Of a stretch of DNA of 64,000 nt, positions 48,207-64,000 are shown one piece after another; position 1 is the first letter of the stretch, and each line of letters starts with the position of its first letter. The position numbers and the translations under genes are program-made. The notes under the pieces are model-generated. The model was given only the letters and a program-made list of their open reading frames with translations. It was not told where the DNA came from and searched no databases. The stretch comes from Citrifermentans bremense. GTDB lineage: Bacteria; Desulfobacterota; Desulfuromonadia; Geobacterales; Geobacteraceae. The DNA is taken from NCBI RefSeq assembly GCF_014218275.1, contig NZ_AP023213.1, positions 558,001 to 622,000 of the forward strand, read 5' to 3'.

Positions 48207-48266
48207 TAGAAGTGGATGCGACTCGGAACAAGAGGATGCGACTCGGTAGAAGTGGATGCGACTGAA
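48207..48266. repeat. Three 20-bp tandem repeats
   Basis: TAGAAGTGGATGCGACTCGG, AACAAGAGGATGCGACTCGG and TAGAAGTGGATGCGACTGAA follow each other with an exact 20-bp period. Twenty bp is close to two helical turns, which would put repeats on one face. No gene starts immediately beside them. Confidence 0.85.
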
Positions 48267-48269
48267 AAG

Positions 48270-49168: not shown

Positions 49169-50130
49169 TTTGTAGCGGTAAGGTGCTTTTGCACTAGCTG
49201 CTTTTCGATGGCATTCAGTCTACTTTGGCACACATCGGCATCAAATTTCTGGCAAGCGCTCATCGGAAAATTCTTCCTGAATTTGCTCTTGTACTGTCCT
49301 TTTCCGTCAGCGATTTGAGAGTCGTACTCGATATCCATGTTAACGGCATCAAGCCGAGCGATCGGATTTACAACTGCAAATTTCCTCTCATATGACTGAT
49401 ACCTTTTCAAGCCCTCTCTTAACTGCCTCTTACCTTCGATGCTTCCGCACACCTGACATATCAGGGACTGCTTGATGTAGTCCGGCTCTGCACAGGCCCA
49501 CTCTTGCGCCGTTGCCACCTTCTCGTGGTACAGGCGTTGTTGCTCTTGCTCAGCAGCCAGCGCCTCTTGTTCCTCCTGAGCTTTCTTTCTGGCTTCGTCA
49601 TCCTTACGGCGCTGCTCTTCTCTGTATTTCCGAATTGCCTCAAATCTTGCAACCTGAGCCCGCTCCCGCTCCTCCTGTTCAAGCTTCCTCTGCTCCGCTG
49701 CTAGTCGAGCTTCCTCTTTCCGCTTTTGAATCCGTACGTTAACTTTATCCCTAACCCCATTGATGGCGTCGACCAACTTGTTGCTGAAGGGAATCTGAAG
49801 AGGTAATAATCGTGAGTATTCGTGAAATTCATCTATGAGGCGTTGTTCGTTGAATCCGGTAGCGTTCTGAAGCTTATCGTAGGTCTCAAACATGCCCAAG
49901 ATGGGATCATACATGTCCAGTATCTTGTAAAAGGTGTCGGAGTCTTGCCGCAGCATCTGTTGGAGTACGTCATGAGCGCCCTGTCGGTCGCGCAAAAGGA
50001 GCTTTTCCTCCAGGACGGTGAGGTCCGTTCGATCATTTTGAAATATTTTTTCCACAAAGGTAGTGAGGTCCGCGAAGCAAACAGAAGGCAGTGCTGTTAG
50101 CATAGCAAGAATGATGATTATGGTCCTCAT
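49165..50130 (-). CDS. Secreted coiled-coil hypothetical protein
   Basis: ATG 50130 (MRTIIIILAMLTALPSVCFA) follows AGAGGG and gives 321 residues with a clear signal peptide; the longer frame is rejected. The middle (about 130-215) is a charged coiled coil rich in Glu, Arg, Gln and Ala. The C-terminal part has four cysteines (WACAEPDY, CQVCGSIEG, then single Cys) and NFPMSACQKFDADVCQ. It is probably periplasmic. The CQVCG pair is not followed by His, so it is not a heme site. Codon use is less GC-rich than in the dcw genes, consistent with acquisition. Function unknown. Confidence 0.65.
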   Translation of the reverse strand: MRTIIIILAMLTALPSVCFADLTTFVEKIFQNDRTDLTVLEEKLLLRDRQGAHDVLQQMLRQDSDTFYKILDMYDPILGMFETYDKLQNATGFNEQRLIDEFHEYSRLLPLQIPFSNKLVDAINGVRDKVNVRIQKRKEEARLAAEQRKLEQEERERAQVARFEAIRKYREEQRRKDDEARKKAQEEQEALAAEQEQQRLYHEKVATAQEWACAEPDYIKQSLICQVCGSIEGKRQLREGLKRYQSYERKFAVVNPIARLDAVNMDIEYDSQIADGKGQYKSKFRKNFPMSACQKFDADVCQSRLNAIEKQLVQKHLTATN

Positions 50131-50219
50131 GGTGTTCGCCCTCTGATGGTTACGGAAGAGATAGAGTGATCCTATAACACATAAATGATGGCTCATAAAG
50201 ATCTATTTGAGGCAGTGGT

Positions 50220-50655
50220 AGTGGGAGCTAAACCAGCCGGTTACGATTCCTCGACCGTGCCCAACTGCGACTGTATCAGGCAAGACAGAACGTGGGGCGG
50301 CGGGCGCGGAGGACGATGGCTGCGCGCGGGGGAAGTAAAAAGGAGAGCCCTTCGGGCCTTCCCCATTCACAACGGTCAGGCGGAGTGCAAGCCCTGGGAG
50401 GCGGCGCACGGAGGGGATAGTTTGGTGCAGGAGGCACAAGGACACCTTGGGGGGAAAGGGGGAAGGGTACCGGAAAAGGACCGGATGACCCGGAGGGGAA
50501 AAAGGAGCCTTGTGGGCGAAAGTGGTTACGGGACTGAAGTTTGAACAGCCGAGGCGGTAGTCGGGGGCTAATTCGAGAGAGGCTAGGTGAGGAAAGGTTT
50601 CTTTTATGTGGACCGGAATCGGATCGGTGACAAAAGAAAAGGGGTCACCGTTTTT
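50220..50655 (+). ncRNA. Candidate large structured RNA ending in a terminator
   Basis: The plus strand is rich in G and A, contains many complementary segments and codes for nothing recognisable. Visible helices are GGGGAAG/CTTCCCC around GCCCTTCGGGC (50331-50366), GTGC/GCAC (50385-50412), GTGCAGGAGGCAC, AAGGACACCTT, CCGGAAAAGGACCGG, and TTTCTTTT (50599-50606) with AAAAGAAA (50632-50639) enclosing ACCG/CGGT. It ends with CGGTGAC/GTCACCG plus five T. The look is that of intron-, HEARO/omega-RNA- or other large ncRNA classes. No nuclease or reverse-transcriptase gene is adjacent. The boundaries are approximate and the class is unassigned. Confidence 0.4.
50625..50655 (+). terminator. Terminator at the end of the candidate RNA
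   Basis: CGGTGAC (50625-50631) pairs with GTCACCG (50644-50650), followed by TTTTT. The loop is A-rich. Confidence 0.7.
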
Positions 50656-50887
50656 ACCGTAACCCTTCTTTATTATGATCGGAATGAGAGAATTCAAACC
50701 TCCGCCGCCTGTTCCCGAAGCAAATGCGCTAACCTAGCGCGTTTCCCTTCATTGAGTTCCGGCAGGTAAGATCAAAACCCGCCAAGGCATACAGTCGCGC
50801 TTAGTTATGCCAGAAAGAAAGATGGTCTCGCCTTCTTATTCCGTTGGCAGCAAATAGCCTCAATCCTAATTCACTGATATCACATGG

Positions 50888-50983
50888 TGCCGGTCTCATT
50901 ATCTCCTACCATCTACCAGTTGTGTGGGTAAAATCTCCAAGTAGATCCCACGGGATACAAGTGGATCAGAATGGGGACCGGCA
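50888..50983. repeat. Short element bounded by imperfect inverted repeats
   Basis: TGCCGGTCTCATT (50888-50900) and AATGGGGACCGGCA (50970-50983) are inverted copies with one extra base, enclosing about 70 bp. The size suggests a mini-element or remnant, but no target duplication was recognised. Confidence 0.35.
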
Positions 50984-51109
50984 GATGTCGGAAGTTCACA
51001 TTAGGTGAGGATGAGAGTGGGATGTTCCTGGAGAGAATCCTCTGGTTAGTGATTTGGCGTCTTTTGCAGGTTTTTTGGCGTTATGTGCATATTATCGCCA
51101 GAGGCAAGT

Positions 51110-51118
51110 TGCTATACT
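51110..51118 (+). promoter_or_regulatory. Extended -10 promoter of the SDR-AraC unit
   Basis: TGCTATACT contains a TGN extension before TATACT. No good -35 is seen 17 bp upstream, as is typical of extended -10 promoters. The SDR start lies about 57 nt downstream of it. Confidence 0.5.
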
Positions 51119-51174
51119 GGTTTTACCTCGGGGTAAGCATTTTAGGTTTCCACTAAGCGACAAAGGAGTACGTT

Positions 51175-51924
51175 ATGACAAATTCAGTTGCTCTCATTAC
51201 CGGTGGTGCTACTGGCATCGGCAAAGCCACCGCCAAAAAACTCGCCAGCAAAGGTGTATCAGTTGTGATCAGCGGCCGTCGCCAGGAGTTGGGGAGGGAC
51301 GCCGTCAAGGAAATCGAGGCGGTCGCCACAAACGGAGCTCAAGTGCGCTTCATCCAGAATGACATCACCGATGAAGGAGCCGTAAAGGAGCTAATTGCCC
51401 AGATCGTCGCTGAGTTCGGTCGTCTCGATATGGCAGTGAACAATGCGGGCCTGTACAACGAAGCGGCTACTATTGACAAGTCAAACACAAAGAACTTCCA
51501 GGACATGCTTGAAGTGAATGTCCTTGGGGTTTACTACAGTATGAAGTACGAAATCGAGCAGATGAGGAAGCAAGGCTCGGGCGCCATCGTAAATCTGGCT
51601 TCAATCGCTGGCTTAAACGGCATCCCACAAACGGGAACCTACGTGAGCACGAAGCACGCTGTGGTAGGCCTGACCAAAGCCTCGGCCATTGATCATGCCG
51701 CTGAGGGGATCCGCATCAATGCAGTGGCGCCTGGCGCCATCAGGACCGACATAATAGCGGCGCAAATCGACGCGGATGAGCAAGGGCTTGCAATGATGCA
51801 CCCAATCAAGCGCATCGGCAAGCCGGAAGAAATCGCCAATGGTATCGCGTGGCTGCTGTCGGATGAGGCAAGTTTTGTGATTGGCCACATCCTGAATATC
51901 GATGGCGGGTATCAGGCGCAATGA
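51175..51924 (+). CDS. Short-chain dehydrogenase/reductase (classical SDR)
   Basis: The 249-residue product starts at ATG 51175 behind AAAGGAG. Cofactor motif TGGATGIG near 10-17, NNAG in AVNNAGLYNE, catalytic Ser in LASIAG and YVSTK with catalytic Tyr and Lys, and the tail HILNIDGGYQAQ define a classical oxidoreductase acting with NAD(P). SGRR after beta-2 suggests NADPH. The substrate is unknown. The stop overlaps the AraC gene start by 4 nt. Confidence 0.88.
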   Translation: MTNSVALITGGATGIGKATAKKLASKGVSVVISGRRQELGRDAVKEIEAVATNGAQVRFIQNDITDEGAVKELIAQIVAEFGRLDMAVNNAGLYNEAATIDKSNTKNFQDMLEVNVLGVYYSMKYEIEQMRKQGSGAIVNLASIAGLNGIPQTGTYVSTKHAVVGLTKASAIDHAAEGIRINAVAPGAIRTDIIAAQIDADEQGLAMMHPIKRIGKPEEIANGIAWLLSDEASFVIGHILNIDGGYQAQ

Positions 51925-52964
51925 TGCCCGCTAACCGCTCCCTGGACAAAATAAAGATTCCTACAGCATTCTGGGAAGGATTGCGACGTGTGGGAATTGC
52001 GCCTGCGAACCTGATAGGCTCTGCACAGATTCCTGTGAGTGCCATTCAAGACGGTGCATCAGTCTCGACAGCGCAGTTCTTTGCCATGTGGCGAACTCTG
52101 GTGGACATCAGCAACGACCCCGCAATCGGTCTTCGCTTAGCAATCGGGTTGGAATGTGCCGTTATGCCCCCATCCTTCCTCGCGGCTTATTACGCGCGGA
52201 ACTTCCGTGACGCCTTGCAGCGCGTGGCACGATTCAAACGCCTATGTGCCCCGGAAGAGATAGTCATCAATGAGCGCGAGGAGCGCTGTGATATAGCGGT
52301 GAAATGGGCGCACGCCGAGGGCTTGGCCGCACCTCCTGCACTGATAGACGCGACCTTCGCCTCCATACTTGAGCTGGGGCGAAAGGGAACGGCTGCGCCG
52401 CTCGTCCCCTTTTCGGTGGAGTTGGCACGTCCCGAAAGCGCAAGAGACTTCTACGAACAATATTACGGCTGTCGCGTCCGTTTCGGTGCGGAGGCCAACC
52501 TTCTGAGCTTCCACCCCGCCGACCTCGAAAAACCCTTTGCGAGCTACAACGCTGAACTACTCGACATCCTGATCCCCGAATTGGATCGAAGGCTAGAGCA
52601 GCAGTCGCACCGGGCCACGCTAGCCGAGCAGATCAAATGGGTTCTGCGTCGGAGACTGACCGCGGGCCGTCCCGATATCCGCTCTGTTGCGACCGAACTG
52701 GCCATGAGCGAGCGTTCATTACAGCGCAAGCTGACCGAGGAGGGGTTGACCTTTCAAGGGCTCCTCGGCGAAACCCGCCATCAGCTTGCTCTTGAATATC
52801 TGGCAGACGAAACGCTCACCATCATAGAAGTGGCTTACATGCTGGGCTACGACGATCAGAACTCCTTTTTCCGCTCATTCCGCCTCTGGGAAAACCAGAC
52901 TCCTTCGGCCTGGCGTGCCCAACAACGCCACCAGGCCCGGCTTCAGCCTGACACACAGAGTTGA
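51921..52964 (+). CDS. AraC-family transcriptional regulator
   Basis: The 347-residue product starts at ATG 51921, overlapping the SDR stop. Residues 20-210 match the arabinose-binding-like N-terminal domain of the OruR/ArgR-type AraC proteins (LECAVMPPSFLAAYYARNFRDA). The HTH_18 domain is about 235-330, with RSVATELAMSERSLQRKL and the second helix region EVAYMLGYDDQNSFFRSFR. It probably regulates the flanking dehydrogenases in response to a small ligand. Confidence 0.88.
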   Translation: MMPANRSLDKIKIPTAFWEGLRRVGIAPANLIGSAQIPVSAIQDGASVSTAQFFAMWRTLVDISNDPAIGLRLAIGLECAVMPPSFLAAYYARNFRDALQRVARFKRLCAPEEIVINEREERCDIAVKWAHAEGLAAPPALIDATFASILELGRKGTAAPLVPFSVELARPESARDFYEQYYGCRVRFGAEANLLSFHPADLEKPFASYNAELLDILIPELDRRLEQQSHRATLAEQIKWVLRRRLTAGRPDIRSVATELAMSERSLQRKLTEEGLTFQGLLGETRHQLALEYLADETLTIIEVAYMLGYDDQNSFFRSFRLWENQTPSAWRAQQRHQARLQPDTQS

Positions 52965-53038
52965 CGCTGATTTCTGTCCTTGACGCCAACTGCCTTTGCA
53001 GGTGGCCACCACCCTTTACCTATTTAAAGGAGCATCAA

Positions 53039-53866
53039 ATGGCAAAAGTTTGGTTCGTTACCGGTAGTTCCCGCGGCCTCGGCCGCAAGATCGCTGAAAC
53101 CGCTTTAGACGCAGGAGACTCGGTAGTTGCCACCGCACGCAAGGTGGAAGACCTTTCCGCATTGGTCGACAAGCATGCAGATCGAGTGCTGCCGCTCGCT
53201 CTTGACGTCACCGACATCGACGCGGTACACCGTGCCGTAAAGATCGGACACGAGCGCTTCGGTCAGTATGATGTCGTCGTAAATAACGCGGGCTACGGGA
53301 ACACTGCTGCCGTTGAAGACATGACTATCGAAGATTTTCGTGCCCAGGTGGATACCAACTTTTTCGGTGTCGTCTATGTAACGAAGGCGATGATACCGAT
53401 CCTGCGCGAACAGGGCAGCGGCCATATTTTCCAGGTCTCCTCCATTGGTGGGCGTATCGGTTCGGTCGGGTTAAGTGCTTACCAAAGCGCCAAGTGGGCC
53501 GTTGGTGGTTTTTCGACCAGCGTTGCGCAGGAGGTCGCGCCCTTTGGTGTAAAAGTCACCATTCTTGAGCCGGGGGGCATGCGGACGGATTGGGCCGGAG
53601 CTTCGATGTCCATCCCTCCCATCAGCGCACCGTACCAGCAGACCGTTGGCCTCTTTGCCCAAATGCTGCGGGATTTGACCGGGAACGAAGTCTCTGATCC
53701 GGTCAAAGTCGCCCAGGTCATCCTGAACATTGCTAACCGTCCGGATGCACCTCTTCATCTGTTGCTAGGAACAGATGCGGTGCAATACGCAGGGGCTGCG
53801 GCTAAAGCGCTGGCCGAGTCGGATGCCCTGTGGCGTGACCTCAGCGTTTCGGTGGCTGTTGACTAA
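53039..53866 (+). CDS. Short-chain dehydrogenase/reductase
   Basis: ATG 53039 (MAKVWFVTGSSRGLGRK) follows AAAGGAG, giving 275 residues; the longer frame is rejected. Motifs are TGSSRGLG, VVNNAGYGN, VSSIGG and YQSAKWAV. ATARKVEDL after beta-2 favours NADPH. The sequence resembles the SDR subgroup annotated as oxidoreductases of unknown substrate near AraC regulators. It lies 74 bp after the AraC gene in the same direction. Confidence 0.87.
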   Translation: MAKVWFVTGSSRGLGRKIAETALDAGDSVVATARKVEDLSALVDKHADRVLPLALDVTDIDAVHRAVKIGHERFGQYDVVVNNAGYGNTAAVEDMTIEDFRAQVDTNFFGVVYVTKAMIPILREQGSGHIFQVSSIGGRIGSVGLSAYQSAKWAVGGFSTSVAQEVAPFGVKVTILEPGGMRTDWAGASMSIPPISAPYQQTVGLFAQMLRDLTGNEVSDPVKVAQVILNIANRPDAPLHLLLGTDAVQYAGAAAKALAESDALWRDLSVSVAVD

Positions 53867-53892
53867 CAGGGCTGAGGAGTAGGGATAGGTTT

Positions 53893-53938
53893 ACCCGTGA
53901 ATGATGGCTCGCGAAATCACAGGCCATCATTCATGGGT
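53893..53938 (+). repeat. 16-bp near-perfect hairpin after the second SDR
   Basis: ACCCGTGAATGATGGC (53893-53908) and GCCATCATTCATGGGT (53923-53938) pair with one mismatch around a 14-nt loop. No T tract follows, and the next ATG lies 15 nt downstream, so it may be an operator or processing hairpin rather than a terminator. Confidence 0.6.
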
Positions 53939-53952
53939 GGAGAGGAGAGGCC

Positions 53953-54627
53953 ATGAGGGTACTGGTATTCGGTGCGACAGGAATGGTTGGACAAGGGGTG
54001 CTTCGGGAGTGCCTTGCTGCTCCGGATGTCAGCCAGGTCATGGTGGTCGAGCGCACGTCCGTGGAGCAGGTGCATCCCAAGCTGCAGGAGTTACTGCTGG
54101 CCGATTTGATGACCTTACACCAGCACGAAAAAGAACTCCAGGGATTCGACGCGTGCTTCTTCTGCTTAGGGGGCAGCTCCTCCGGGATGAGCGAAGAGGC
54201 ATACCGACGCCTGACCTACGATCTTACTTTGGACGTGGCTTCCCTGCTGGCGCGCCTTACCCCCTCGATGACCTTTGTCTATGTCTCAGGTGCAGGCGCT
54301 GACAGTTCCGAACGCGGCCCTAGCATGTGGGCGAGAGTTCGCGGACAAACGGAGAATGCCCTTTTTCGTCTTCCCTTCGCTCAGGTTTACTCAATTCGCC
54401 CTGCCATAATTCAGCCGCTTCACGGCATCCGCTCGAAGACGTTGTCATACCGAATGCTGTATCAGGTGCTTAGTCCATTGTTTCCATTGGTGCGCTGGCT
54501 CGCTCCGAGGATGGTACTAAGCACCGAACTAATGGGGCAAGCTATGCTTGAGTTGGCGCGCAAGGGAGCCGACATTCACGTGCTGGAAGCGCGGGACATT
54601 CATAGGATGGGAAAGCGTCAAGGCTGA
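53953..54627 (+). CDS. NAD(P)-binding atypical SDR / epimerase-like protein
   Basis: The 224-residue product starts at ATG 53953 behind GAGAGGAG. The glycine motif VFGATGMVGQG is that of extended or atypical SDRs (NmrA/HTATIP2-like). The Ser-Tyr-Lys triad is not clear (VYVSGAGADSSERG). YSIRPAIIQPL is typical of the HTATIP2-like subgroup. It probably binds NAD(P). It completes the SDR-AraC-SDR group. Confidence 0.75.
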   Translation: MRVLVFGATGMVGQGVLRECLAAPDVSQVMVVERTSVEQVHPKLQELLLADLMTLHQHEKELQGFDACFFCLGGSSSGMSEEAYRRLTYDLTLDVASLLARLTPSMTFVYVSGAGADSSERGPSMWARVRGQTENALFRLPFAQVYSIRPAIIQPLHGIRSKTLSYRMLYQVLSPLFPLVRWLAPRMVLSTELMGQAMLELARKGADIHVLEARDIHRMGKRQG

Positions 54628-55075
54628 TGCAGGCAGCAAGTTTACACAGGTCGACACCACGCCTCAGTGTTCATTAGGTTGAGGTACTGCTATTTCCTCT
54701 TTCACTAACAATCCACCTGTGAGAGTACCTTCTGGTAATCTCATCTTCTCGTTTAAAATTTCGGCTCCTCTTGTTGTCTATTCCAATTTTTTAGCGTCTT
54801 CTATGTCGTCAGGCAGAGGGGAGCATACGATGCTAACGAGCTGTTTTCTCTAAATGTGCTCTTGTATCCTGTTATGGCATTTACCATTTGTGTGTTGTTT
54901 GTTTGTTGTTGGTGGTGTGTGATGAGGTGGGTGGCACATGGCAGGAGAGGATGGGTTTAGGTACGAGTCGATGCGCCTCGGAAGCAGCTAACGCGATTGG
55001 TTTTTCTCAAAGGACAGACACCTCAGCGTTTCCGCTAAGGTGTCTGAATAGAGCATTTGGTACAACCACTGTTGT
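54628..55075. other. AT-rich gene-free region between convergent units
   Basis: About 450 bp with no supported gene. The composition is notably T-rich (GTGTGTTGTTTGTTTG around 54890). The distal end carries the hairpin at 55015-55046. Confidence 0.55.
55015..55046 (-). terminator. Hairpin downstream of the cytochrome operon
   Basis: CAGACACCTCAGCG (55015-55028) pairs with CGCTAAGGTGTCTG (55033-55046), 13 of 14 positions, around TTTC. It lies 29 nt beyond the last cytochrome stop on the minus strand. The following T tract is poor (TCCTTTG). Confidence 0.6.
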
Positions 55076-55486
55076 TTATTGGTGACAGATCGAACATGCC
55101 ATGCCGCTCGATGGAACACCTTCACCATTGATTCCGTGACACACCGCAGTGTTGCATGATTCGAGACCATTGGCAGGCAAGTTTGATCCATGATCTTTCA
55201 GGTTTGTCCATTCGCTTGGATGAACAGACAATGGACCGCCAATGTGGCATTGAGTGCAGGAAATTCCTGAAATTCCACCCGCAAGGTCTGCTCCGTGGCA
55301 TTCTTTGCAGGGCTCATGGTTAGCCTTGGCCACTGCTGCATGGTCAAAGGGCCATGATTTCGGATGCTTGCCCGTGTAAGGATCCAAACTAGCCTGGGAG
55401 TTTGGATCGCCACACCCCGGAAGCGATAGAAGCGATGCAGCCAGCAGTAGGGTTAATGCTATGGATTTGGCTGTTATCTGTGACAT
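55076..55486 (-). CDS. Tetraheme c-type cytochrome lipoprotein
   Basis: ATG 55486 (MSQITAKSIALTLLLAASLL) with GAGGGG upstream gives 136 residues. The signal ends LLSLPGC, a lipobox, so the mature protein is lipid-anchored. Heme sites are CKECH, CTQCH, CNTAVCH (a CX4CH spacing) and CSICH at the very C-terminus. It overlaps the preceding cytochrome gene by 13 nt and is the last gene of the conduit operon. It may transfer electrons on the periplasmic or outer face of the outer membrane. Confidence 0.88.
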   Translation of the reverse strand: MSQITAKSIALTLLLAASLLSLPGCGDPNSQASLDPYTGKHPKSWPFDHAAVAKANHEPCKECHGADLAGGISGISCTQCHIGGPLSVHPSEWTNLKDHGSNLPANGLESCNTAVCHGINGEGVPSSGMACSICHQ

Positions 55487-55911
55487 GACTTGCACCCCTC
55501 GTTGTTTTGTCTTCCGTGGCACTTGACGCACGATGCGGGGTTGATCTTGCCGTCGATCTTATGCTGGCGGAGATAATCGCCGCGGTGTGGCAGGTTACGC
55601 TCAACGGCATTGGAAAACTTGCTGCTTGGTTTGATCTCCTCCCGGTGCGCGTGGCAGTCCGAGCAGAACGCCTCCTGGTGACAGGTATCGCAGGCGAATT
55701 TGGTGTTCGAGTAATTTTTATGTTTGATCATGAAATCAGGTGCTTTGTGATTCAGAGCACCCCAGGAATCAGTATGGCACTCTGCGCAGTTTGGGAGTCC
55801 TGTCACCGTTTCCGGGTGAACCCTGGCAATGCTCGCGCTGTTTGCGCAGGCATAGAGCATCGTAACGGTGACCGAAACCGATATTAGTTGTAAAAATCTG
55901 CTCAATCTCAC
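55474..55911 (-). CDS. Pentaheme c-type cytochrome, secreted
   Basis: This 145-residue protein starts at GTG 55911, which overlaps the porin stop (GTGA) behind GGGAGGG. The signal region MRLSRFLQLISVSVTVTMLY ends in ACANS, a possible lipobox. Five heme motifs are seen: CAECH, CDTCH, CSDCH, CVKCH and CKSCH. The spacing resembles small multiheme cytochromes of the NapC/c3-like kind. Within a porin-cytochrome operon it is the natural candidate for the periplasm-side or barrel-embedded electron carrier. Confidence 0.9.
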   Translation of the reverse strand: MRLSRFLQLISVSVTVTMLYACANSASIARVHPETVTGLPNCAECHTDSWGALNHKAPDFMIKHKNYSNTKFACDTCHQEAFCSDCHAHREEIKPSSKFSNAVERNLPHRGDYLRQHKIDGKINPASCVKCHGRQNNEGCKSCHR

Positions 55912-57239
55912 TTTTCCCTCCCTTCAGCAGCGCCTTTCGAATCGAATATGTAGGTGAGTTTGACAAGCCCCTGCACCTCATCGTCATAATAAGGGTTTTT
56001 GGAGTAGTCGAGATTGGCGCCGACTTTCAGGCATTCAGAAATCTCGCAAGAGGCACCCCCGGAAACAGAAAGTGAATTCTTCACGTCGTTTATTCTGTTG
56101 TCGTACCGCAAGTTGATTAAATCAGCATACACGTCAGTCTGCCCCAGTTTCTTGGAAGCGTATATGCGTGTTTTGTAATACTGCAGCTTGCTTGCATTGC
56201 CATCCATACGATGTAAAGAGATGCCAGCCGCGAATGATTGTGGGGCTGAGTAGGCGATCTTGCCGCCAAAGTACTGAGCCGATTCCTCTATTTCATAATC
56301 GTAGTTGCGATAATCGGCGGTAACCGTGACTTGTTTTGACGGCGAATAAACTGCGCTGGCACCTAGCGCCAACGATTTTTCCTTCGGATCCAGGGTTCCC
56401 AAAACCCCGTGTCTCAGGCTCAAGGCGCTTGTAGTGACACGGTAGAAATAGTCCTCATAGTTGATTTTAGCGATATCGACGCTCAGGGAGAGGTCGTCGC
56501 GCGGAATATATGATGCTGCATAGTTATGTTCCATCCACCCCGATGTCAGCGAGTTGTAGTTTGACCGGCCGGTGATGTCGAGTTTGTTCGTTGGGTGCAG
56601 CCAAATGTCTACGCCTTCCTCTTCGCGATAGCGGTCGCCATCTGCAAATGACTTCAAAGCGCTGACACCCAGAGAGTAATGCTTGTTGTCGCCTTGGCTT
56701 ATGCGCCCGCCGTAGATAAAGTCGTCGCCTTCCAACTCACTTTGATCTGTGTTGACTGGCGACCCGACAAATGCGGCTGCAGCGAAGCCGTTTGCGAAGT
56801 CGTTGCGGACGTAGAGGCCGTCAAGTCGCTGGGCGGCAACACCCTCAACCACAAATTGCCGGCCGGCATTTATTGCCATGTTGTTTTTGGCCCCTTGATA
56901 GCTGATGTAACCGTACTGCAGGTCGCCTTCCGCATCCTCGTCCCGGTATGTCTGCTGCTCGCCAACACGCCCCCATCCGCCGATATGCAGCGAAGTCGCG
57001 CTGCCATCTTTGTTCCCTGTAACGGTAGACAGCTGTAAATATTCGTACAGCCGCAAGTCGGTCTTGTTGCCCAAAGACTCCCTGATACGCAGAAGCGTGT
57101 CCGATCTGCCGGAAAATGATGTTTCGGCGTGGGTCGGAACGGCGCCAAGCAGCGTGCATGCAGTTGCGGCGATTCCGCCCACAATTCTCAGGTCGCCTGA
57201 AAGTTGGTGCCACGACCTAATTAACCTCGGACCTTTCAA
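55908..57239 (-). CDS. Outer-membrane beta-barrel porin of a cytochrome conduit
   Basis: TTG 57239 is chosen because AAAAGGAGG lies 7 nt upstream and the resulting N-terminus (MKGPRLIRSWHQL, then GGIAATACTLLGAVPTHA) is a signal peptide; a frame back to 57284 has no site. The 443-residue mature part is made of alternating amphipathic beta strands (SLHIGGWGRVGEQ, YGYISYQGAKNNMAINAGRQ, ADYRNYDYEIEES) and ends in an aromatic-hydrophobic strand LVKLTYIF with a short tail. There is no heme motif. By analogy with MtrB/OmbB it would sheath cytochromes across the outer membrane. Sequence similarity to those families is not evident by eye, so the role is taken from context. Confidence 0.82.
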   Translation of the reverse strand: MKGPRLIRSWHQLSGDLRIVGGIAATACTLLGAVPTHAETSFSGRSDTLLRIRESLGNKTDLRLYEYLQLSTVTGNKDGSATSLHIGGWGRVGEQQTYRDEDAEGDLQYGYISYQGAKNNMAINAGRQFVVEGVAAQRLDGLYVRNDFANGFAAAAFVGSPVNTDQSELEGDDFIYGGRISQGDNKHYSLGVSALKSFADGDRYREEEGVDIWLHPTNKLDITGRSNYNSLTSGWMEHNYAASYIPRDDLSLSVDIAKINYEDYFYRVTTSALSLRHGVLGTLDPKEKSLALGASAVYSPSKQVTVTADYRNYDYEIEESAQYFGGKIAYSAPQSFAAGISLHRMDGNASKLQYYKTRIYASKKLGQTDVYADLINLRYDNRINDVKNSLSVSGGASCEISECLKVGANLDYSKNPYYDDEVQGLVKLTYIFDSKGAAEGREK

Positions 57240-57256
57240 GGTATTCCTCCTTTTAT

Positions 57257-57288
57257 GGAAATGGGGGCCGGCAGTGGCCCCCATTTCC
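57257..57288 (-). terminator. Long hairpin in the cytochrome-porin gap
   Basis: GGAAATGGGGGCC (57257-57269) and GGCCCCCATTTCC (57276-57288) form a perfect 13-bp stem with a 6-nt loop, 18 nt upstream of the porin TTG and about 95 nt downstream of the cytochrome stop. On the minus strand it is followed by ATAAAAGGAGG, so it has no real T tract. It may stabilise the upstream mRNA or reduce read-through. Confidence 0.55.
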
Positions 57289-57382
57289 TGGTAAACGTAC
57301 TCGTGTTCCGGCGGTACCCTGTCTTTGCCAGGGGGGCGCCTAAAGCTATGACGTCTGTACCCCTTCGAACGTCTTCGGAATT

Positions 57383-58693
57383 TTAAAGGTCACTGTGCAA
57401 TGAGGGGGGCGTGGCGTACCCCGGAGTTGCGTGGCACGATGCACACAATTTGTCGCTAGTCTGTTGGCCGCCATCGCCGAGAGCACCTTGGTGAGTTATT
57501 GTGCCTGCGGTGGCAAAATCGACGCCGTCATGACAGGAACCGCAGGCCGCTCTGTTGGGAACTTTTTTCCAGTTGTCACCCTGTGGGGTAGCTGCGGTTG
57601 CCGCTGTGTGGCAGTTGGCACATCTTGGGTTCGAGGCATTGTCGCCAAAGGACATTGAGGGAACAAGTGCTCCCATATCGTTGTAGTCGTATCCTTTCAG
57701 CGTCAATCTCTTACCCATGTGAATTCTGTGCATGAAAGCTGTGAAGCTTGCGACCGCGGAGCCGTTGACGACATGTGTCCCCAAAACTGCTGGTCCGCCA
57801 GCTTCGTTAGTTTCTTGAACACCGTTAGCATCAAGAATAGGTTCAGGCGCTAAGATAGTATTGTCATTGATGGCGCGAGGGGCTTCGTGGTGGCCTACTT
57901 TGATCTGCTCGGTGTGGCATATGACGCAAAACTGTGGATTCTGGCGTGTGCCGTGGTGGGCGGTGAATCTGGCTGAGCCGCTGTGGCACTTCAAGCACAA
58001 GTCACGAGATACTATTTCACGCTTGCTTTCGTCAGCGGCAACCTTGCCAGTTGCCGGTACGAAATCTATCACCCGCTCGTAAGTCTCTAATAACGGATAG
58101 GCCCAGGTATCGACACTTTTTTTGCTGGTTATGGCAACAACCACGCGGTGGGTCCGGTCCGGATTATAGGTCAGGTCTCCCAGATCCTTCATGTTGTAAT
58201 CGCCGGCTGCCGGCGGGACTGCTGCGTCAACTAACCCCTTAACAGCAGAAACATCAAGTGCGAATGTGTATGAATATGTACCGTCATTGTTGTCCTTAAA
58301 TACTCCAGCCCTTTCTACGGATGGGTATTTGCCTTTGTTTGAAGCGGCATCATAGACATTGTAGTTGACCCACTGGCTGCCCCCTCCGTTTGTGCCAGGC
58401 TCCAGTTTGGCTATCCCGAAACTCAGGTTGCCGATCGGTACACCTACAACTGGTCTGCCGTTGGACGTCACTTTGAAATTTACTGTCGCCTTGCCGTTGC
58501 TGATGGTGGGGACGCCAATTATGCCGGAATCTGCATCAAAAGTGAGATCTCTCCATTGCTCTTTAAACAACTCAGCGGCATTGATGGGGGTAGTGTTATT
58601 GTTGGTGCTTTCATTGCTGTCGCTACCACACCCACCAAGAGTTACCGCTAGAACGGACATCAAACACAAACGTCTCAAAAACTTCATTTTCAT
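57383..58693 (-). CDS. OmcA/MtrC-like pentaheme outer-surface cytochrome lipoprotein
   Basis: ATG 58693 (MKMKFLRRLCLMSVLAVTL) follows AAAGGAGAGG; the upstream extension is not coding-like. The 436-residue protein has the lipobox LAVTLGGC. An N-terminal Ig-like beta domain follows (about 30-215, GKATVNFKVTSNGRPVVGVP, DGTYSYTFALDVS), then a heme domain with CLKCH, CVICH, CANCH, CGSCH and CASCH plus extra His (FTAHHGTRQ, KVGHHEAPR, FMHRIHMGKR) as distal ligands. Domain order is that of one half of decaheme OmcA/MtrC proteins. As first gene of the operon under a sigma-54 promoter it is the probable outer-surface electron outlet. Confidence 0.88.
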   Translation of the reverse strand: MKMKFLRRLCLMSVLAVTLGGCGSDSNESTNNNTTPINAAELFKEQWRDLTFDADSGIIGVPTISNGKATVNFKVTSNGRPVVGVPIGNLSFGIAKLEPGTNGGGSQWVNYNVYDAASNKGKYPSVERAGVFKDNNDGTYSYTFALDVSAVKGLVDAAVPPAAGDYNMKDLGDLTYNPDRTHRVVVAITSKKSVDTWAYPLLETYERVIDFVPATGKVAADESKREIVSRDLCLKCHSGSARFTAHHGTRQNPQFCVICHTEQIKVGHHEAPRAINDNTILAPEPILDANGVQETNEAGGPAVLGTHVVNGSAVASFTAFMHRIHMGKRLTLKGYDYNDMGALVPSMSFGDNASNPRCANCHTAATAATPQGDNWKKVPNRAACGSCHDGVDFATAGTITHQGALGDGGQQTSDKLCASCHATPGYATPPSLHSDL

Positions 58694-58755
58694 ACACCTC
58701 TCCTTTAATCCTGTGGTTGGTTTTCTACTGCCATTGCATTTGAAATCATTGGCAT

Positions 58756-58771
58756 AGCAACCACTGTGCCC
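58756..58771 (-). promoter_or_regulatory. Sigma-54 (-24/-12) promoter of the cytochrome-porin operon
   Basis: On the minus strand GGGCACAGTGGTTGCT has GG and GC exactly 10 nt apart and matches TGGCAC-N5-TTGCW at all but one position. Transcription would start near 58745, about 50 nt before the ATG. An NtrC-type activator is encoded immediately upstream. Confidence 0.8.
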
Positions 58772-58833
58772 TGCGAAAGATGTTAATGATTTTAGAGGCT
58801 TAAGTCTGTGATGTGGAATTTGCAAAGAGGGGA

Positions 58834-58940
58834 TGTTCAATATCCGACGACGCGTGGAGTTCGTTTGGGGGGTGCTGGAAGTAACGTCCCGAATTTGTGT
58901 GGTAAATCCAGTGAAGGGGTTTGTTCAAAATACGACGGGG
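58834..58940. promoter_or_regulatory. Candidate activator sites (direct repeats) upstream of the sigma-54 promoter
   Basis: TGTTCAATATCCGACGACG (58834-58852) and TGTTCAAAATACGACGGGG (58922-58940) agree at 15 of 19 positions and are 88 bp apart. They lie about 65 and 150 bp upstream of the -24 element, the usual range for enhancer sites of NtrC-type proteins. Binding is inferred. Confidence 0.55.
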
Positions 58941-58993
58941 TGGGATAGGTGCGGGTCGGGTTGCAGGCGGTCTCAGTGGTGACTAAGTCAGTT

Positions 58994-60361
58994 TCAGTCG
59001 GGCTTGTGAATCTGGTAACGCTCCATCTTACTGTAGAGGGTGCCGCGGGCGATACCGAGGGCTTCGGCAGCTTGGCTGAGATGCCAGTCCTTCGCTTCAA
59101 GAACTCTACGTATAAGAGTTTTTTCAGCAGATGCGAGAGAGCTGTCATACAGAGTCAATGTAAAATCATCGCTCGTCTCTGCCTGCAACTCTTCAGAAAG
59201 ATGTTCCGGCAGGATCTGATGCCCTGAACAGAACACTACGGCGTGCTCAATGCAGTTTGCCAACTGCCTTACATTGCCAGGCCATTGATAATTACTCAGG
59301 ATGGCGGTTGTTTGTTTGCTGAACCCAGTAACCTGCTTACAAGTCTTCTTATTATATAATTCGAGAAAGAAACGAGCGAGCAAAGGGATGTCGGTTCTCC
59401 GCTCGCGAAGTGGTGGCGCCGTAAGTGACACGACGTTGATGCGGTAATAAAGATCCTCGCGGAACAGTTTGTCCTTGACGCTGCACGCCAGATTTTTATT
59501 GGTGGCGCAGATAACCCTGACGTCAACATGAATCGTTTCGTTGCCGCCGACCCGCTGAAAGCTCCCCACCTCCAGAACCCGTAGTAGCGCCACTTGGGTC
59601 TGAATCGGGATATCGCCGATCTCGTCAAGAAAAATCGTCCCCCCTGAGGCAAATTCAAAAAAGCCGGGCTTTCTTGCAGTCGCCCCTGTAAAGGCACCTT
59701 TTTCATGCCCGAACAGCGCACTGTTGATGAGGGTTTCGGTCAACGCCGCGCAGTTTACTCGTACAAATGGTTTAGCGCACCGGGCGCTTCTGGCGTGAAT
59801 AGCCTCAGCAATAAGTTCCTTGCCGGTACCGCTTTCTCCGTTTATAAGCACCGTGGCGTCGCTCTGGGCCACTTGCTGGATTTTTTCGAAAAGCTTGAAC
59901 ATGATCTGATCTTTGCCGATCATGTTTTCAAAACGGAATTCATCATCTGTCGGGGGTGGTTCTTTCAACAACCGGCGGTGTTCGAGAATCTTTCCCAATT
60001 GTCTCCGGATCATCTCGATGTCAAGTGGTTTCAAGATATAGTCATAGGCCCCCGCTTTCATCGCTTTCACCGCATTATTCGATGAATCCACGCCGGTCAG
60101 AATCAGTACGAATATCTCCGGGTAATTGCGTTTGATCTCTTCCAAGAGATCCAAACCGCCCATGTGTGGCATCAAAATATCGGTAAGAACGACCTCGGCA
60201 GGATATTCTCGCAGTATATGCAAAGCTTCCTTGCCATTGCCTGCCGTCCTGATCAAGAAACGGTCATCGTCTTCCATGGCGCGGCTGAAAAGGCGCCCGT
60301 ACGCCGGTTCGTCATCAACGTACAATATCCGGCACTTGTCCTGGTTCATGTTGTTTTTCAC
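58994..60361 (-). CDS. Sigma-54-dependent NtrC-family response regulator
   Basis: The 455-residue product starts at GTG 60361, overlapping the receiver gene stop (GTGA); ATG 60349 is an alternative. Receiver domain about 10-125 with VVLTDILMPHMGG. AAA+ domain about 147-380 with Walker A GESGTGKELIAEAIH, the sigma-54 contact loop GAFTGA, Walker B GGTIFLDEIGD and the arginine region VRVICATNK. A Fis-type HTH ends the protein (AAEALGIARGTLYSKMERY). It should activate the sigma-54 promoter 220 bp downstream of its stop. Confidence 0.95.
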   Translation of the reverse strand: MKNNMNQDKCRILYVDDEPAYGRLFSRAMEDDDRFLIRTAGNGKEALHILREYPAEVVLTDILMPHMGGLDLLEEIKRNYPEIFVLILTGVDSSNNAVKAMKAGAYDYILKPLDIEMIRRQLGKILEHRRLLKEPPPTDDEFRFENMIGKDQIMFKLFEKIQQVAQSDATVLINGESGTGKELIAEAIHARSARCAKPFVRVNCAALTETLINSALFGHEKGAFTGATARKPGFFEFASGGTIFLDEIGDIPIQTQVALLRVLEVGSFQRVGGNETIHVDVRVICATNKNLACSVKDKLFREDLYYRINVVSLTAPPLRERRTDIPLLARFFLELYNKKTCKQVTGFSKQTTAILSNYQWPGNVRQLANCIEHAVVFCSGHQILPEHLSEELQAETSDDFTLTLYDSSLASAEKTLIRRVLEAKDWHLSQAAEALGIARGTLYSKMERYQIHKPD

Positions 60362-60759
60362 CTTTTCTCAAGGGGGCATTTGCCGTAGAAGGAAACTGCC
60401 TCCGCGACAATTCCTATCAGCTCGTCTGCTTTCCATGGTTTATGCAAAAAGGTAAACAGCTTGTTTTCTGCCAAGGCTTCCTGAACGGCAACTGCATCGG
60501 CATAGCCAGACAAAAGAACTCGACGGGCCTCCGGTCGCTCGCGAAGAACGATTTTGAGAAAGTCGATTCCTGACATGCCCGGCATCCGGAAATCAGACAC
60601 GACCACATGGATACGCTGCGTTTGGCGCAGAAAGCGCAGCCCCTCTTCCGCAGAAAGCACTCCGTGCACTTCAACGTCCAAGTCGCACAATTGTCTGCGA
60701 ACGGTATTGAGGATATTTATTTCATCGTCCACACAAAGGACCTTGATGGCCTCAAACAT
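60358..60759 (-). CDS. Single-domain response regulator (receiver)
   Basis: ATG 60759 (MFEAIKVLCVDDEINILNT) follows GGAG at 8 nt, giving 133 residues. A complete receiver is seen: acidic pair VDDE, phospho-acceptor Asp in VVVSDFRMPGMSG, Thr/Ser in VLLSGYAD and Lys in FLHKPW. There is no output domain. It lies between the kinase and the NtrC-type regulator, so it may be a phosphate shuttle or sink in the same pathway. Confidence 0.9.
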   Translation of the reverse strand: MFEAIKVLCVDDEINILNTVRRQLCDLDVEVHGVLSAEEGLRFLRQTQRIHVVVSDFRMPGMSGIDFLKIVLRERPEARRVLLSGYADAVAVQEALAENKLFTFLHKPWKADELIGIVAEAVSFYGKCPLEKR

Positions 60760-60775
60760 CCTTGTTCTCCGAGCA

Positions 60776-62788
60776 TCACACTCCCAACGGAAGTCGCACA
60801 GTGAAAACGGAGCCTTTGCCCAGTTCACTTTCCACGGTTATGTCACCCTGATGTTTTTTAACGATCTCTTTGACGATTGACAGCCCCAATCCGGTGCCGT
60901 CCCCCACCTCTTTGGTGCTGAAAAACGGTTCGAACAGCTTGCCGACGTTTTCCTCGGCAATGCCGGCACCGGTATCACCAATAGCCACATAGATGCTCTG
61001 GCGCTCCGCCCAGGTCCGGATCGTGATTTCGCCCCACCCTTCGATCGCCTGAGAGGCATTGATGAGCAAATTCATGAACACCTGGTTTAGCTGCTGCGGA
61101 TAACAGAGAAGCTGTGGTATTTTCCCGTAATCCTTCTCAATATCAGCTTTGTAACGTAGCTCATTCATCACGATGTTGAGTGTGCTTTCCAGGCATTCGT
61201 TGACGTCTGCCATGCATGCTTCCTTTTCGTCGTGACGGGAGAATCCCTTCAGGTTCATCACAGTCCGGCTTACCCGCTCCGTTCCTTCAAACGATTCGTC
61301 GAGGACATCATTGAATTCATCCAGCACATGATCCACCTTCAGTTTGCTGCGTTGCTCTGCAAGGCTGTTTAGCAACTCTGGGGGGGCCGAGGAGTGCAAA
61401 GCTTCGTCCTGAACTGCAATAAATGCGGTAAGCTTGCCCCAATAATTTTTAAGAACCTCCAAATTGCCTGCCACAAAACCGATTGGATTGTTGATGTCAT
61501 GGGCGACGCTTGCCGCAAGTTGGCCGATACATGCCATCCGGTCCTGCTGCAATATGGTCCCTTGTTGAACCTGTAGGTTATTGTAGGCCTCTTCCAGTTT
61601 CTGGTTGCTCGCGGCAAGTTTCAGGTTCAACTCGCTCAACTCTGTGGTACGTACTGCAACCCGCTGTTCGAGGTGTTCATTCAGAACGACAAGTTTTTCC
61701 TCTGCCCGCCATCTTTCCGCAACTTCACGTTCCAGCTGCTTGTTCGTGCTGGCCTGTTTCTCAAATTCCCTCTCCAATTGCTCCCGCTGGTTCAGGAGAC
61801 GGCGTTCAACCCGGCCTAGCACTCGGTAGGAATAGATGAAAAAACTGCCACACAGCAGCAGGCTGAAAGAAGCTACCTGAGCTGCAAATGCCCGTATATT
61901 AGCGAGTTTAGATGTAGAATCCATCACCGTGACAAATTCCCCGACGGTCATTCGTGCAGCATCTTGCAGGGGGAAGGATTCGACCCGGTAGGTACGATCA
62001 TTGATATTGATTCTTTTGCCATATTTTTTTGAGTCGGAGTCAGACTTAAAAAGATTTGCAACATCAGGGAACGGTATAGGGGTCGTGATATCGGCCAGAA
62101 CCATGTCTTGGAGAAGATGCCAGTCGGCGGTGCGCCCCATCGCCTTCATTTCCGCTTCCCATGCGCCACGATCAAGATATTTTTTTTCTAGTAATACGGC
62201 ATAATCGGCCTTCGTGATGGATTTAAGCTCCTGGAGGATGTGGTTGCACTCTTGTCCCAGCTCGATGTAGCCGATCAGCTTGCCGTTGACCTTCCATGGA
62301 GAGACAACTCGAAGCGTGAAGCTTCCGCTGTGTCCCAGTTCCAGGCCCGAAACGGTTCTGCCCAGTACCATCGCTTGTTCTTTGGTGAAACGTGGCTTTA
62401 CCGGGGTTGTATCTTCGGGATTGTACACCCGCAGAACCATGGCACCGTTTCTGTCGTAAAAGTAGAAATGGGTGATCTGCTCATAATCGAACAACCGCTT
62501 GAATATGGGGGTCGCATGCAGCAGGAGTGCTGCTTGATTGTGTGTCTGCATGGCATGCTGAAACTGTTTCTCATCTGCAATAAATTCAATGGTCGAGGAC
62601 ATAAATCTTGTGCGGTCGGCAACAAGGTTCTTTAATATTTGCTGAACCTGCACATGACGTTTTTGCATGCCTTCCTCATAGTGAGCCATGCGCAACCAGT
62701 AGCTACTGTATATAAATGTCCCTGCCAGGATGAGGAAGGTTAACGTTAAGGGGATAAATACTTGGCGTCTGATTTTATTTTCCTGCAT
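60776..62788 (-). CDS. Membrane sensor histidine kinase with periplasmic Cache-like domain
   Basis: ATG 62788 (MQENKIRRQVFIPLTLTFLI) is chosen at the start of TM1; upstream codons are not protein-like. The 670-residue kinase has TM1 about 10-30 and a large periplasmic sensor about 31-295 (FYFYDRNGAMVLRVYNPE, LGHSGSFTLRVVSPWKVNGK), a double-Cache or DctB-like pattern. TM2 is about 305-325, followed by a long coiled coil to about 430, HisKA with ASVAHDINNPIGF, and HATPase with NLLINASQA, GDTGAGIAEEN and GTGLGLSIVKEI. It is the likely input for the adjacent receiver and NtrC-type regulator. Confidence 0.92.
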   Translation of the reverse strand: MQENKIRRQVFIPLTLTFLILAGTFIYSSYWLRMAHYEEGMQKRHVQVQQILKNLVADRTRFMSSTIEFIADEKQFQHAMQTHNQAALLLHATPIFKRLFDYEQITHFYFYDRNGAMVLRVYNPEDTTPVKPRFTKEQAMVLGRTVSGLELGHSGSFTLRVVSPWKVNGKLIGYIELGQECNHILQELKSITKADYAVLLEKKYLDRGAWEAEMKAMGRTADWHLLQDMVLADITTPIPFPDVANLFKSDSDSKKYGKRININDRTYRVESFPLQDAARMTVGEFVTVMDSTSKLANIRAFAAQVASFSLLLCGSFFIYSYRVLGRVERRLLNQREQLEREFEKQASTNKQLEREVAERWRAEEKLVVLNEHLEQRVAVRTTELSELNLKLAASNQKLEEAYNNLQVQQGTILQQDRMACIGQLAASVAHDINNPIGFVAGNLEVLKNYWGKLTAFIAVQDEALHSSAPPELLNSLAEQRSKLKVDHVLDEFNDVLDESFEGTERVSRTVMNLKGFSRHDEKEACMADVNECLESTLNIVMNELRYKADIEKDYGKIPQLLCYPQQLNQVFMNLLINASQAIEGWGEITIRTWAERQSIYVAIGDTGAGIAEENVGKLFEPFFSTKEVGDGTGLGLSIVKEIVKKHQGDITVESELGKGSVFTVRLPLGV

Positions 62789-62999
62789 ACCTACTACCTT
62801 GTCTTGAGCGTATCGAAATTTATCATGGCGGCCAAAACTGATCTGCACGATATGTGCCTGCGCTGTCGTTGGGGGGGTGCCCATATATGATGATTTAGAT
62901 TTTAAAATTTCCTTTCCCAAAATTACGATGGAGCCATCAGTGATGTCAAGTTCTCAGAATAACCTGCTCCCCAACCTGCCATCGTCAAATCTCCAAATT
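62789..62999. other. Region upstream of the kinase, no gene seen
   Basis: About 210 AT-rich bases between the kinase start and the transposase remnant. No convincing promoter for the kinase was identified. Confidence 0.45.
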
Positions 63000-63204
63000 T
63001 TCGACTCGTTTTGTATCGCAAACCCAATATTTTGCAGCTGAAGATGTTGCCTTTGAAGCGCCCCTTGCCGTCCATGCTGATCTTGACGTTCCAGGCCTTG
63101 AGGATGGCGGTGAACGCTTCGCTGGTGAACTGGCAGCCCTGGTCGGTGTTGAAGATTTCCGGCGTGCCGAACTTAAAAAGAGCCTCCTGCTGGTCCCGAT
63201 GCTC
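63000..63204 (-). pseudogene. IS3-family transposase (OrfB, DDE core) fragment
   Basis: One minus-strand frame, with no start codon, reads FKFGTPEIFNTDQGCQFTSE, then AFTAILKAWNVKISMDGKGR, the well-known middle of the IS3-group integrase core with the second catalytic Asp (NTDQG). It then decays: GRFKGNIFSC replaces the usual GRWMDNVF. Both ends of the gene and the inverted repeats are missing. The left end of the fragment is uncertain. Confidence 0.8.
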
Positions 63205-63233
63205 TTGACAAACATAGCCTGCTATGTATTAAT
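63205..63233 (+). promoter_or_regulatory. Promoter of the MarR gene
   Basis: TTGACA (63205-63210) is followed at 16-17 bp by TATTAA/ATTAAT. The -35 sits exactly at the end of the transposase remnant. Both operators overlap or follow the -10. Confidence 0.6.
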
Positions 63234-63247
63234 ATAGCCAGCTATGT
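63212..63247 (+). promoter_or_regulatory. Two tandem MarR operators
   Basis: ACATAGCCTGCTATGT (63212-63227) is a perfect palindrome apart from its two-base centre. ATAGCCAGCTAT (63234-63245) repeats its core. Centres are 20 bp apart, two helical turns, so two dimers could bind the same face and block the promoter. Confidence 0.78.
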
Positions 63248-63266
63248 AACTTTGGGGGAGGTCGAA

Positions 63267-63713
63267 ATGCACGAAAATCTTTGTTCCAAGCTGAACTACC
63301 TGGCCCGTTTGCTGCTCTCCAAAGTGAACGAGGAAACAAGTAGTTACGGCGTCACTCAGGGGCAGCTGCCTGTGCTTTGCTGCTTAAACGACAAGGAAGG
63401 GCAGACCCAGTCAGAACTTTGCAAAAACATCCAGGTTGAACAGCCGACTATGGCCAACACGTTGCGGAGAATGGAGCGAGACGGCCTGATATGCAAAACT
63501 CCCAGCGAGCACGACGGCCGCCAGTCGCAGATTTTCATATCGAGCGAAGTCCGGCCCCTTCTTGAGTCTCTGCAGGCAAAAAGGGATGAAGTCATCTCCT
63601 GGATGTTGCGGGACATGTCGGTTGAAGAGCGGGACACCTTCAAACGGTTGATCGATAAGGCCGTGAAGTCCTTGGATGAGAGGCCCAGGCAGGCTGAACG
63701 AAAAAAGGAGTAG
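63267..63713 (+). CDS. MarR-family transcriptional regulator
   Basis: ATG 63267 follows GGGGGAGG and gives 148 residues. The winged helix is recognised from GVTQGQLPVLCCLNDKEGQT, the recognition region VEQPTMANTLRRMERDGLI and the wing HDGRQSQIFIS. Terminal helices mediate dimerisation. Two cysteines in LCCLN could allow redox sensing, as in OhrR/MosR-type relatives, but this is speculative. It probably represses its own promoter through the tandem operators. Confidence 0.9.
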   Translation: MHENLCSKLNYLARLLLSKVNEETSSYGVTQGQLPVLCCLNDKEGQTQSELCKNIQVEQPTMANTLRRMERDGLICKTPSEHDGRQSQIFISSEVRPLLESLQAKRDEVISWMLRDMSVEERDTFKRLIDKAVKSLDERPRQAERKKE

Positions 63714-64000
63714 GCGTCGACGCCATCGACAAGGTGCTGGTCGGCATCGGACGCAGCCCCAATACCGAGGGGCTCAACCTCGAGGCGGCCGGCGTGCGGA
63801 CCGAACGTGGCGCCATCAAGGTCAATGCACTGATGCAGACCAATGTCCCGCACATCTACGCCATCGGTGATGTGACCGGGGGGCTCACGTTGGCGCATGC
63901 GGCGGAAAGGGAGGCGCAACTGCTTGTCCAAAACCTGCTAAAGGGCAATAGCCGCGTTCTCAAGGAATTGGCTGTGCCTCGGATAGCTTTCAGTTATCCC
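63713..64000 (+). pseudogene. N-terminally truncated dihydrolipoamide dehydrogenase-type gene (runs off the window)
   Basis: Directly at the MarR stop a different frame begins with GVDAIDKVLVGIGRSPNTEG and continues TNVPHIYAIGDVTGGLTLAH, the C-terminal FAD-contact segment of pyridine nucleotide-disulfide oxidoreductases, closest to lipoamide dehydrogenase. The N-terminal FAD motif, redox-active cysteine pair and NAD domain, some 250-270 residues, are missing. No start codon with a ribosome site precedes it. The 3' end lies beyond the window. Rearrangement with the adjacent IS fragment is the likely cause. Confidence 0.75.

Follow-up and report, generated by a model that had tools for sequence, protein, structure and literature searches.

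A candidate sigma-54 switch cassette of Desulfuromonadia electron-transfer operons and its predicted porin-cytochrome conduit in Citrifermentans bremense

We analyzed a 64,000-nucleotide stretch of Citrifermentans bremense DNA (contig NZ_AP023213.1, positions 558,001 to 622,000; hereafter the window), in which seven minus-strand genes at 55076-62788 encode a regulatory trio of Cache-type sensor kinase, lone receiver and sigma-54 activator, in this order, and then, behind a sigma-54 promoter, four proteins of a predicted outer-membrane electron conduit. The set is likely to be an imported, self-regulated porin-cytochrome conduit, with a kinase/activator cassette that serves Desulfuromonadia electron-transfer operons in general as a plug-in switch. 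A first-pass annotation had described these genes as a single block of kinase, receiver, activator, promoter and conduit, and all of these elements were found in the proposed order and on the proposed strand. It had also suggested that the conduit is separately regulated, a proposal that the conservation of cassette, operator and promoter across loci strongly supports.

The kinase/activator cassette and its downstream genes

The kinase (670 amino acids; 60779..62788, on the minus strand like all features described here) carries an N-terminal dCache_3 sensor (2.9e-16) and a HATPase_c domain; a HisKA match, with His430, is present below its curated cut-off. The stand-alone receiver (REC) protein (PF00072; 60358..60759) is followed by an NtrC-type activator of 455 amino acids (58994..60361) with Response_reg, Sigma54_activat (3.1e-70) and Fis-type helix-turn-helix (HTH) domains and a GAFTGA loop. 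A kinase with H-box and ATPase domains and an activator of REC, AAA+ (GAFTGA) and HTH domains make up an NtrC-type two-component sigma-54 system, and its DNA side, a −24/−12 promoter with upstream sites, is present as well.

A profile built from eight kinases was searched against 277 genomes of the class, with the best four candidates per genome scored. At least 30 orthologs, including that of the window, scored at least 626 bits: 28 span nearly the whole model of 678 positions, one covers positions 107-672 and one 1-559. The next-best kinases among the matches listed reached at most 462 bits and aligned in the kinase core only. One more cassette (L171; genes in the compared loci, designated by L numbers, were called with our own open reading frame picker) was taken from a named collection. 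All 31 kinase genes are followed by an activator gene, or by part of one at a contig end, and the lone receiver is found in 22 of the 31 cassettes, including that of the window. The kinases of L148, L149, L151-L156 and L171 form a sub-clade whose cassettes have no lone receiver and, in several of these loci, precede tetraheme/NHL clusters.

Electron-transfer genes lie downstream at 25 of the 26 cassette places with enough DNA (30 places in all; L144, L148, L153 and L155 fall outside the 26); the exception is L141. The 25 include three loci in which a contig end leaves only a fragment of a barrel or cytochrome gene (L136, L150, L152). The downstream genes are diverse. They include an OmcA/MtrC decaheme cytochrome alone, OmcA together with an Omb-type set, and an Omb-type set in L157. 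A barrel/pentaheme/tetraheme set follows the cassette in L140, and in L115 it is accompanied by an OmcA gene that is split over two frames. The fragments are those of a barrel in L136 and L150 and of an OmcA-like protein in L152, and tetraheme/NHL clusters occur in L149, L151 and L154. In L145-L147 the cassette precedes genes for an MtrA-like decaheme cytochrome and an MtrB/PioB barrel; models were run on two of these loci, with a TIGR03508 match for the decaheme protein on L145 and the MtrB/PioB match on L146. These three loci thus hold an MtrAB-like pair behind a sigma-54 site in Desulfuromonadia.

A shared operator and promoter

The 300-nt gap between the activator gene and the half-size cytochrome gene carries the sigma-54 site GGGCACAGTGGTTGCT (58756..58771; 58771-58756 as read). 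This −24/−12 site outscored 100 of 100 dinucleotide shuffles of its own region, in agreement with the promoter that the first-pass annotation had placed between activator and operon; the published Geobacter RpoN consensus is TTGGCACGGTTTTTGCT (PMC2725144). The bare sigma-54 pattern with up to two mismatches is not enriched in the window (47 observed versus 68 expected), so that the weight rests on conservation of the site across cassettes. Upstream of the promoter are two copies of a 16-bp operator, YGNCGNATNTTGAACA. Measured from the start of the sigma-54 site, operator 1, CGTCGTATTTTGAACA (58922..58937), begins 166 bp and operator 2, CGTCGGATATTGAACA (58834..58849), 78 bp upstream; the two lie 88 bp apart.

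The letters common to the two window operators, CGNCGNATNTTGAACA, served as the search pattern, and stretches downstream of other genes within the same loci served as control regions. With at most one mismatch the pattern gave 21 sites in 15 of the 26 other cassettes and none in 226 control regions. The corresponding counts were 41 sites in 21 of 26 cassettes versus 5 sites in 5 of 226 controls at up to two mismatches, and 58 sites in 24 of 26 versus 40 sites in 38 of 226 at up to three. When Y was allowed at the first position, the pattern matched 54 sites in 27 regions at up to two mismatches, none of them on the opposite strand. The distance between neighboring operators is 77-98 bp in 25 of 30 pairs. 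The last operator of seven cassettes (the window, L116, L118, L120, L125, L136 and L139) starts 77-79 bp before the sigma-54 site.

Operator and promoter were then scored as a pair, an operator with a sigma-54 site 60-230 bp downstream. Such pairs are present in 26 of 28 cassettes, L171 among them, and in 0 of 223 controls, of which 13 have an operator-like site and 14 a promoter-like site singly. L142 and the first cassette of L143, which duplicate L117 and L121, were excluded from the operator and promoter tests, as were L144 (222 nt downstream), L148 (48 nt) and L155 (no downstream DNA). In L138, L140 and L151, other open frames separate the activator gene from a conduit 1.7-2.6 kb away, and there the operators and promoter sit shortly before the cytochrome or barrel gene; L151 has a further operator/promoter set beside the activator gene. 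For these three loci the regions tested reached as far as the conduit gene (1.7, 2.6 and 2.6 kb, with controls of 0.8 kb). Holding all regions to 800 nt gave 24 of 28, with L138 and L140 then lacking a pair. Five conduits or stand-alone cytochromes that were examined and have no cassette (the window genome's own second cluster, in L034, and L126, L119, L114 and L042; 403-1130 nt each) showed neither operator nor promoter. Both perfect operators of the window genome are at this locus; with four one-mismatch matches they make six, the same number as for a reversed-pattern control.

Several points weigh against a general, dedicated switch. The pattern letters were taken from the two window sites and written down after other loci had been viewed, and both the score threshold and the distance range of the paired test were also chosen after viewing the loci. 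The cassettes share descent and hence are not independent trials. The paired test failed in two of the 28 cassettes: at the thresholds used, L137 shows neither operator nor promoter, and L156 shows operators with a weak −24/−12 element. In L141, operator and promoter are followed by a DUF3422 gene, with no cytochrome. Finally, in four other cassette-bearing genomes the one-mismatch operator matches exceed the reversed-pattern control (16/6, 6/4, 19/6 and 18/1), and further operator targets in these genomes are possible. Among the larger genes behind the L141 cassette (G149:C31) and in the same orientation, the DUF3422 gene comes first, and a DUF3422-like frame, judged by eye, follows the OmcA gene in L156.

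The half-size OmcA/MtrC cytochrome

The first conduit gene (57383..58693) encodes a predicted surface lipoprotein of 436 amino acids (lipoboxes of the conduit proteins were read directly from the sequence). It matches the OmcA/MtrC model TIGR03507 with 219.9 bits against a cut-off of 209.3, which places it in this family, and the match covers only model positions 3-311 of 672. The earlier description of a half-size OmcA/MtrC-like protein was therefore apt: with five CXXCH motifs and half of the model, it lacks the ten hemes and four domains of the decaheme family. The histidines of the five CXXCH motifs as well as His322, His325 and His433 are common to 18 of 18 aligned homologs. His433, probably a heme ligand, is three residues from the C-terminus, which indicates that the protein stops where domain II stops. 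Its structure model resembles MtrC and OmcA structures, including PDB 9eov (MtrC domains I-II), with low confidence in the heme part. Sequence and model together suggest that the protein corresponds to MtrC domains I-II and is naturally short.

Matches at E≤0.001 were found in 53 of the 277 Desulfuromonadia genomes. The closest homolog among the matches listed is a 765-amino acid decaheme protein from another family (54% over the match). With the best six candidates per genome scored, a half-size counterpart of the window protein was not seen in the 53 matching genomes; the other listed frames below 600 amino acids comprise two partial matches, a match at a contig end and one of the halves of a split gene. 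This solitary occurrence is what would be expected if the surface cytochrome were a decayed decaheme OmcA/MtrC protein, left impaired or dead with its conduit after horizontal transfer, and the foreign base composition and the IS3 remnant next door also fit that view. The conservation described above does not establish a working half-size cytochrome, a further point against the reading we prefer. However, the five CXXCH motifs are intact, the end falls just past a conserved histidine, no remnant of domains III-IV was found after the gene, and promoter and operators are intact. An engineered Shewanella MtrC made of domains I and II, MtrC(DI,II), is reported still to join MtrAB, although it reduced flavin mononucleotide and Fe(III) citrate poorly (PMC12304082). 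We therefore regard decay as unlikely. In MtrCAB the heme facing MtrA is C5, in the first half of MtrC (PMC7198977); together with the assembly of MtrC(DI,II) with MtrAB, this suggests that the half kept here is the docking half. The range of soluble acceptors of the window protein is probably narrow, because domains III-IV are missing. No report of a natural half-size MtrC was found in the open-access literature among the matches listed.

The barrel and the inner cytochromes

The barrel gene (55908..57239; 443 amino acids; TTG start after AGGAGG) is followed by genes for a pentaheme cytochrome of 145 amino acids (55474..55911) and a tetraheme lipoprotein (55076..55486). The barrel had been described as not obviously MtrB or OmbB. 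The first half of this description held, as no Pfam or NCBIfam model, MtrB/PioB (PF11854, TIGR03509) included, matched it at E≤0.1; the second was weakened by remote kinship to Omb-type barrels. The pentaheme cytochrome gene is present as described, and a lipobox-like N-terminus (LYAC) has to be added to the description of its product. The four motifs of the tetraheme lipoprotein were also found, yet they are three CXXCH and one CX4CH. Neither of these two cytochromes matches the MtrA-type decaheme model (TIGR03508) at E≤0.1.

An AlphaFold2 model of the barrel, made with a 28-sequence alignment, has 22 predicted strands at a mean predicted local distance difference test score (pLDDT) of 83, consistent with the porin-like outer-membrane barrel of a porin-cytochrome (Pcc) conduit. 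Genes for a multiheme cytochrome and a multiheme lipoprotein lie directly downstream of the barrel gene, as in such conduits; their location is deduced from the lipoboxes. Of the family's 48 genomes, 34 have a match to the barrel (E≤0.001), and the outer cytochromes beside related barrels vary from decaheme OmcA/MtrC to 8- to 9-heme proteins and others.

If the complex is built like those of the Pcc and Mtr systems, the barrel would enclose the pentaheme cytochrome, a candidate heme wire across the outer membrane, and electrons would be relayed at the barrel faces by the tetraheme and half-size MtrC-like lipoproteins. The domains of the regulators suggest that an extracytoplasmic signal is sensed by the Cache kinase, which phosphorylates the sigma-54 activator, and that the lone receiver may buffer or time this signal. 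The two 16-bp operators described above would be the binding sites of the activator, and the single sigma-54 promoter would serve all four conduit genes.

The relatives of this organism are mostly metal reducers, which argues for outward electron flow. The opposite, an uptake conduit drawing electrons from Fe(II), minerals or partner cells, is quite improbable in our view, even though the sequence does not fix direction and the Mtr complex is reported to conduct both ways in liposomes (PMC7198977).

Another possibility is that the barrel is an ordinary nutrient porin and that the cytochromes do not pass through it. The model resembles barrels generally, general porins among them, with TonB-dependent receptors as the best match, and among the 28 aligned members generic Pfam porin or barrel models have some hits (OMP_b-brl in 8, Porin_4 in 2, OprF in 1 and Porin_2 in 1), the window's own barrel matching none. 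In contrast, the pentaheme gene is next after the barrel gene at 40 of 41 non-duplicate places, the window included (barrel aligned over at least 300 amino acids, more than 700 nt downstream). In addition, the barrel profile (A4) matches frames of 403-460 amino acids in other genera (7e-13 to 2e-18, about 230-255 positions), and in two genomes the matched barrels adjoin 8-heme and large multiheme genes (G003 in L051 and G009 in L052). A nutrient porin is therefore highly improbable, and the neighborhoods of the profile-matched barrels suggest that the window barrel is remotely related to Omb-type barrels, with Omb named by gene order.

That the cassette merely adjoins cytochrome operons and regulates something else has hardly any probability: L141 and the possible operator-like sites in other genomes speak for it, but operators and promoter precede the conduit even where it lies farther off, and the window genome has no further perfect operator.

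Base composition and origin of the locus

The GC content at third codon positions (GC3) of the seven genes is 0.46-0.64, versus 0.89-0.90 for ftsZ, ftsA and typA in the window; that of the genome's own second conduit cluster is 0.80-0.81. Overall GC is 0.50-0.52 in the seven genes against 0.62 over positions 1-48000. In the kinase tree, the window protein is sister to that of Geobacteraceae bacterium GWC2_53_11 (support 99), whose cassette likewise precedes a barrel gene fragment, and the two sit in a five-row set with kinases of other families. The tree was made by a quick method with Shimodaira-Hasegawa-like approximate likelihood ratio test (SH-aLRT) support only, and two of its 32 rows are long branches. 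A full-length kinase ortholog was not seen in genus mates in the 277-genome search with the best four candidates per genome scored. On the basis of GC3 and the kinase tree, the seven-gene set was probably acquired by horizontal transfer.

The low GC begins near 48 kb and continues for roughly 7 kb beyond the window end, and this stretch is possibly a larger genomic island. From 48000 to 64000 and on to about G000:C1:629000, GC is 0.47-0.60 versus 0.62, and the stretch holds frames that, by eye, resemble short-chain dehydrogenases, AraC and MarR, together with an IS3-family transposase remnant. The remnant lies upstream of the kinase gene (63034..63183), and its matches (NF033516, 3.5e-08; rve, 2.6e-07) are below curated cut-offs, as fits a fragment. 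Also upstream of the kinase gene is a weaker −24/−12-like site, AGGCACATATCGTGCA (62844-62859; score 12.0), which perhaps serves autoregulation.

The same genome holds a second barrel/pentaheme cluster with a full decaheme OmcA of 885 amino acids and no cassette. L034 (G000:C1:984000-1003999), the locus of this cluster, has a 720-amino acid decaheme frame and a 449-amino acid barrel followed by a pentaheme match, besides the decaheme OmcA-barrel-pentaheme-triheme set; none was seen with a cassette.

Discussion

Beyond the window, we lean towards the broader view that a mobile cassette with its own 16-bp operator switches on structurally unrelated conduits (OmcA/MtrC, MtrAB-like, Omb-type and Pcc) across many Desulfuromonadia in answer to one class of extracytoplasmic signal, and that its target here is a conduit with a natural MtrC domain I-II protein as its cap. 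The way in which metal-respiring bacteria select from their numerous outer-membrane conduits is largely an open question. If sensor, operator and promoter are indeed shared, the operator would predict regulon members, and the switch would offer both a sensor with a searchable ligand and a genetic part ready for use. What MtrC domains III-IV contribute is a question for which the half-size cytochrome offers a natural test. No report of the cassette or its operator was found in the open-access literature among the matches listed.

The window conduit had been thought to differ from known ones. This is only partly right, because a barrel with pentaheme cytochrome and CX4CH lipoprotein is of the described Pcc type (PMC4245776), and the second such cluster in the same genome has a full decaheme OmcA. 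The conduit is thus of a known kind, and what is new is the switch architecture and the half-size cap.

The Pcc type of Geobacter sp. M18 is reported to combine 5-heme and atypical-heme cytochromes with a barrel (Shi et al., 2014, PMC4245776). Like the window, the clusters GM18_3461-3469 and GSU2726-2724 (extEFG) have a barrel, a 5-heme cytochrome and an atypical CXnCH cytochrome in one cluster as described (PMC4245776, PMC6148476), a likeness judged for GM18_3461-3469 and ExtEFG by described motif counts and gene order alone. The window differs from them by an additional half-size OmcA/MtrC gene at the front, by a dedicated kinase/receiver/sigma-54 cassette and by a last cytochrome with fewer hemes. 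The half-size protein resembles Shewanella MtrC(DI,II), which consists of domain I and the pentaheme domain II only (PDB 9eov) and was also made in a lipid-anchored form (PMC12304082); the window protein differs in being natural and part of a Geobacteraceae conduit without MtrAB. With Shewanella MtrCAB (PMC7198977) the window would share a barrel, an inner heme wire and a surface cytochrome, which may work alike, but its barrel is not MtrB/PioB, it has no decaheme MtrA, and its surface cytochrome has five hemes rather than ten. Finally, the ombB-omaB-omcB conduit of G. sulfurreducens (PMC4245776, PMC6148476) also stands beside its regulator, OrfR, and the window barrel appears to be remotely homologous to Omb-type barrels as named by gene order. 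OrfR is a single transcription factor, whereas the window conduit would be under two-component sigma-54 control.

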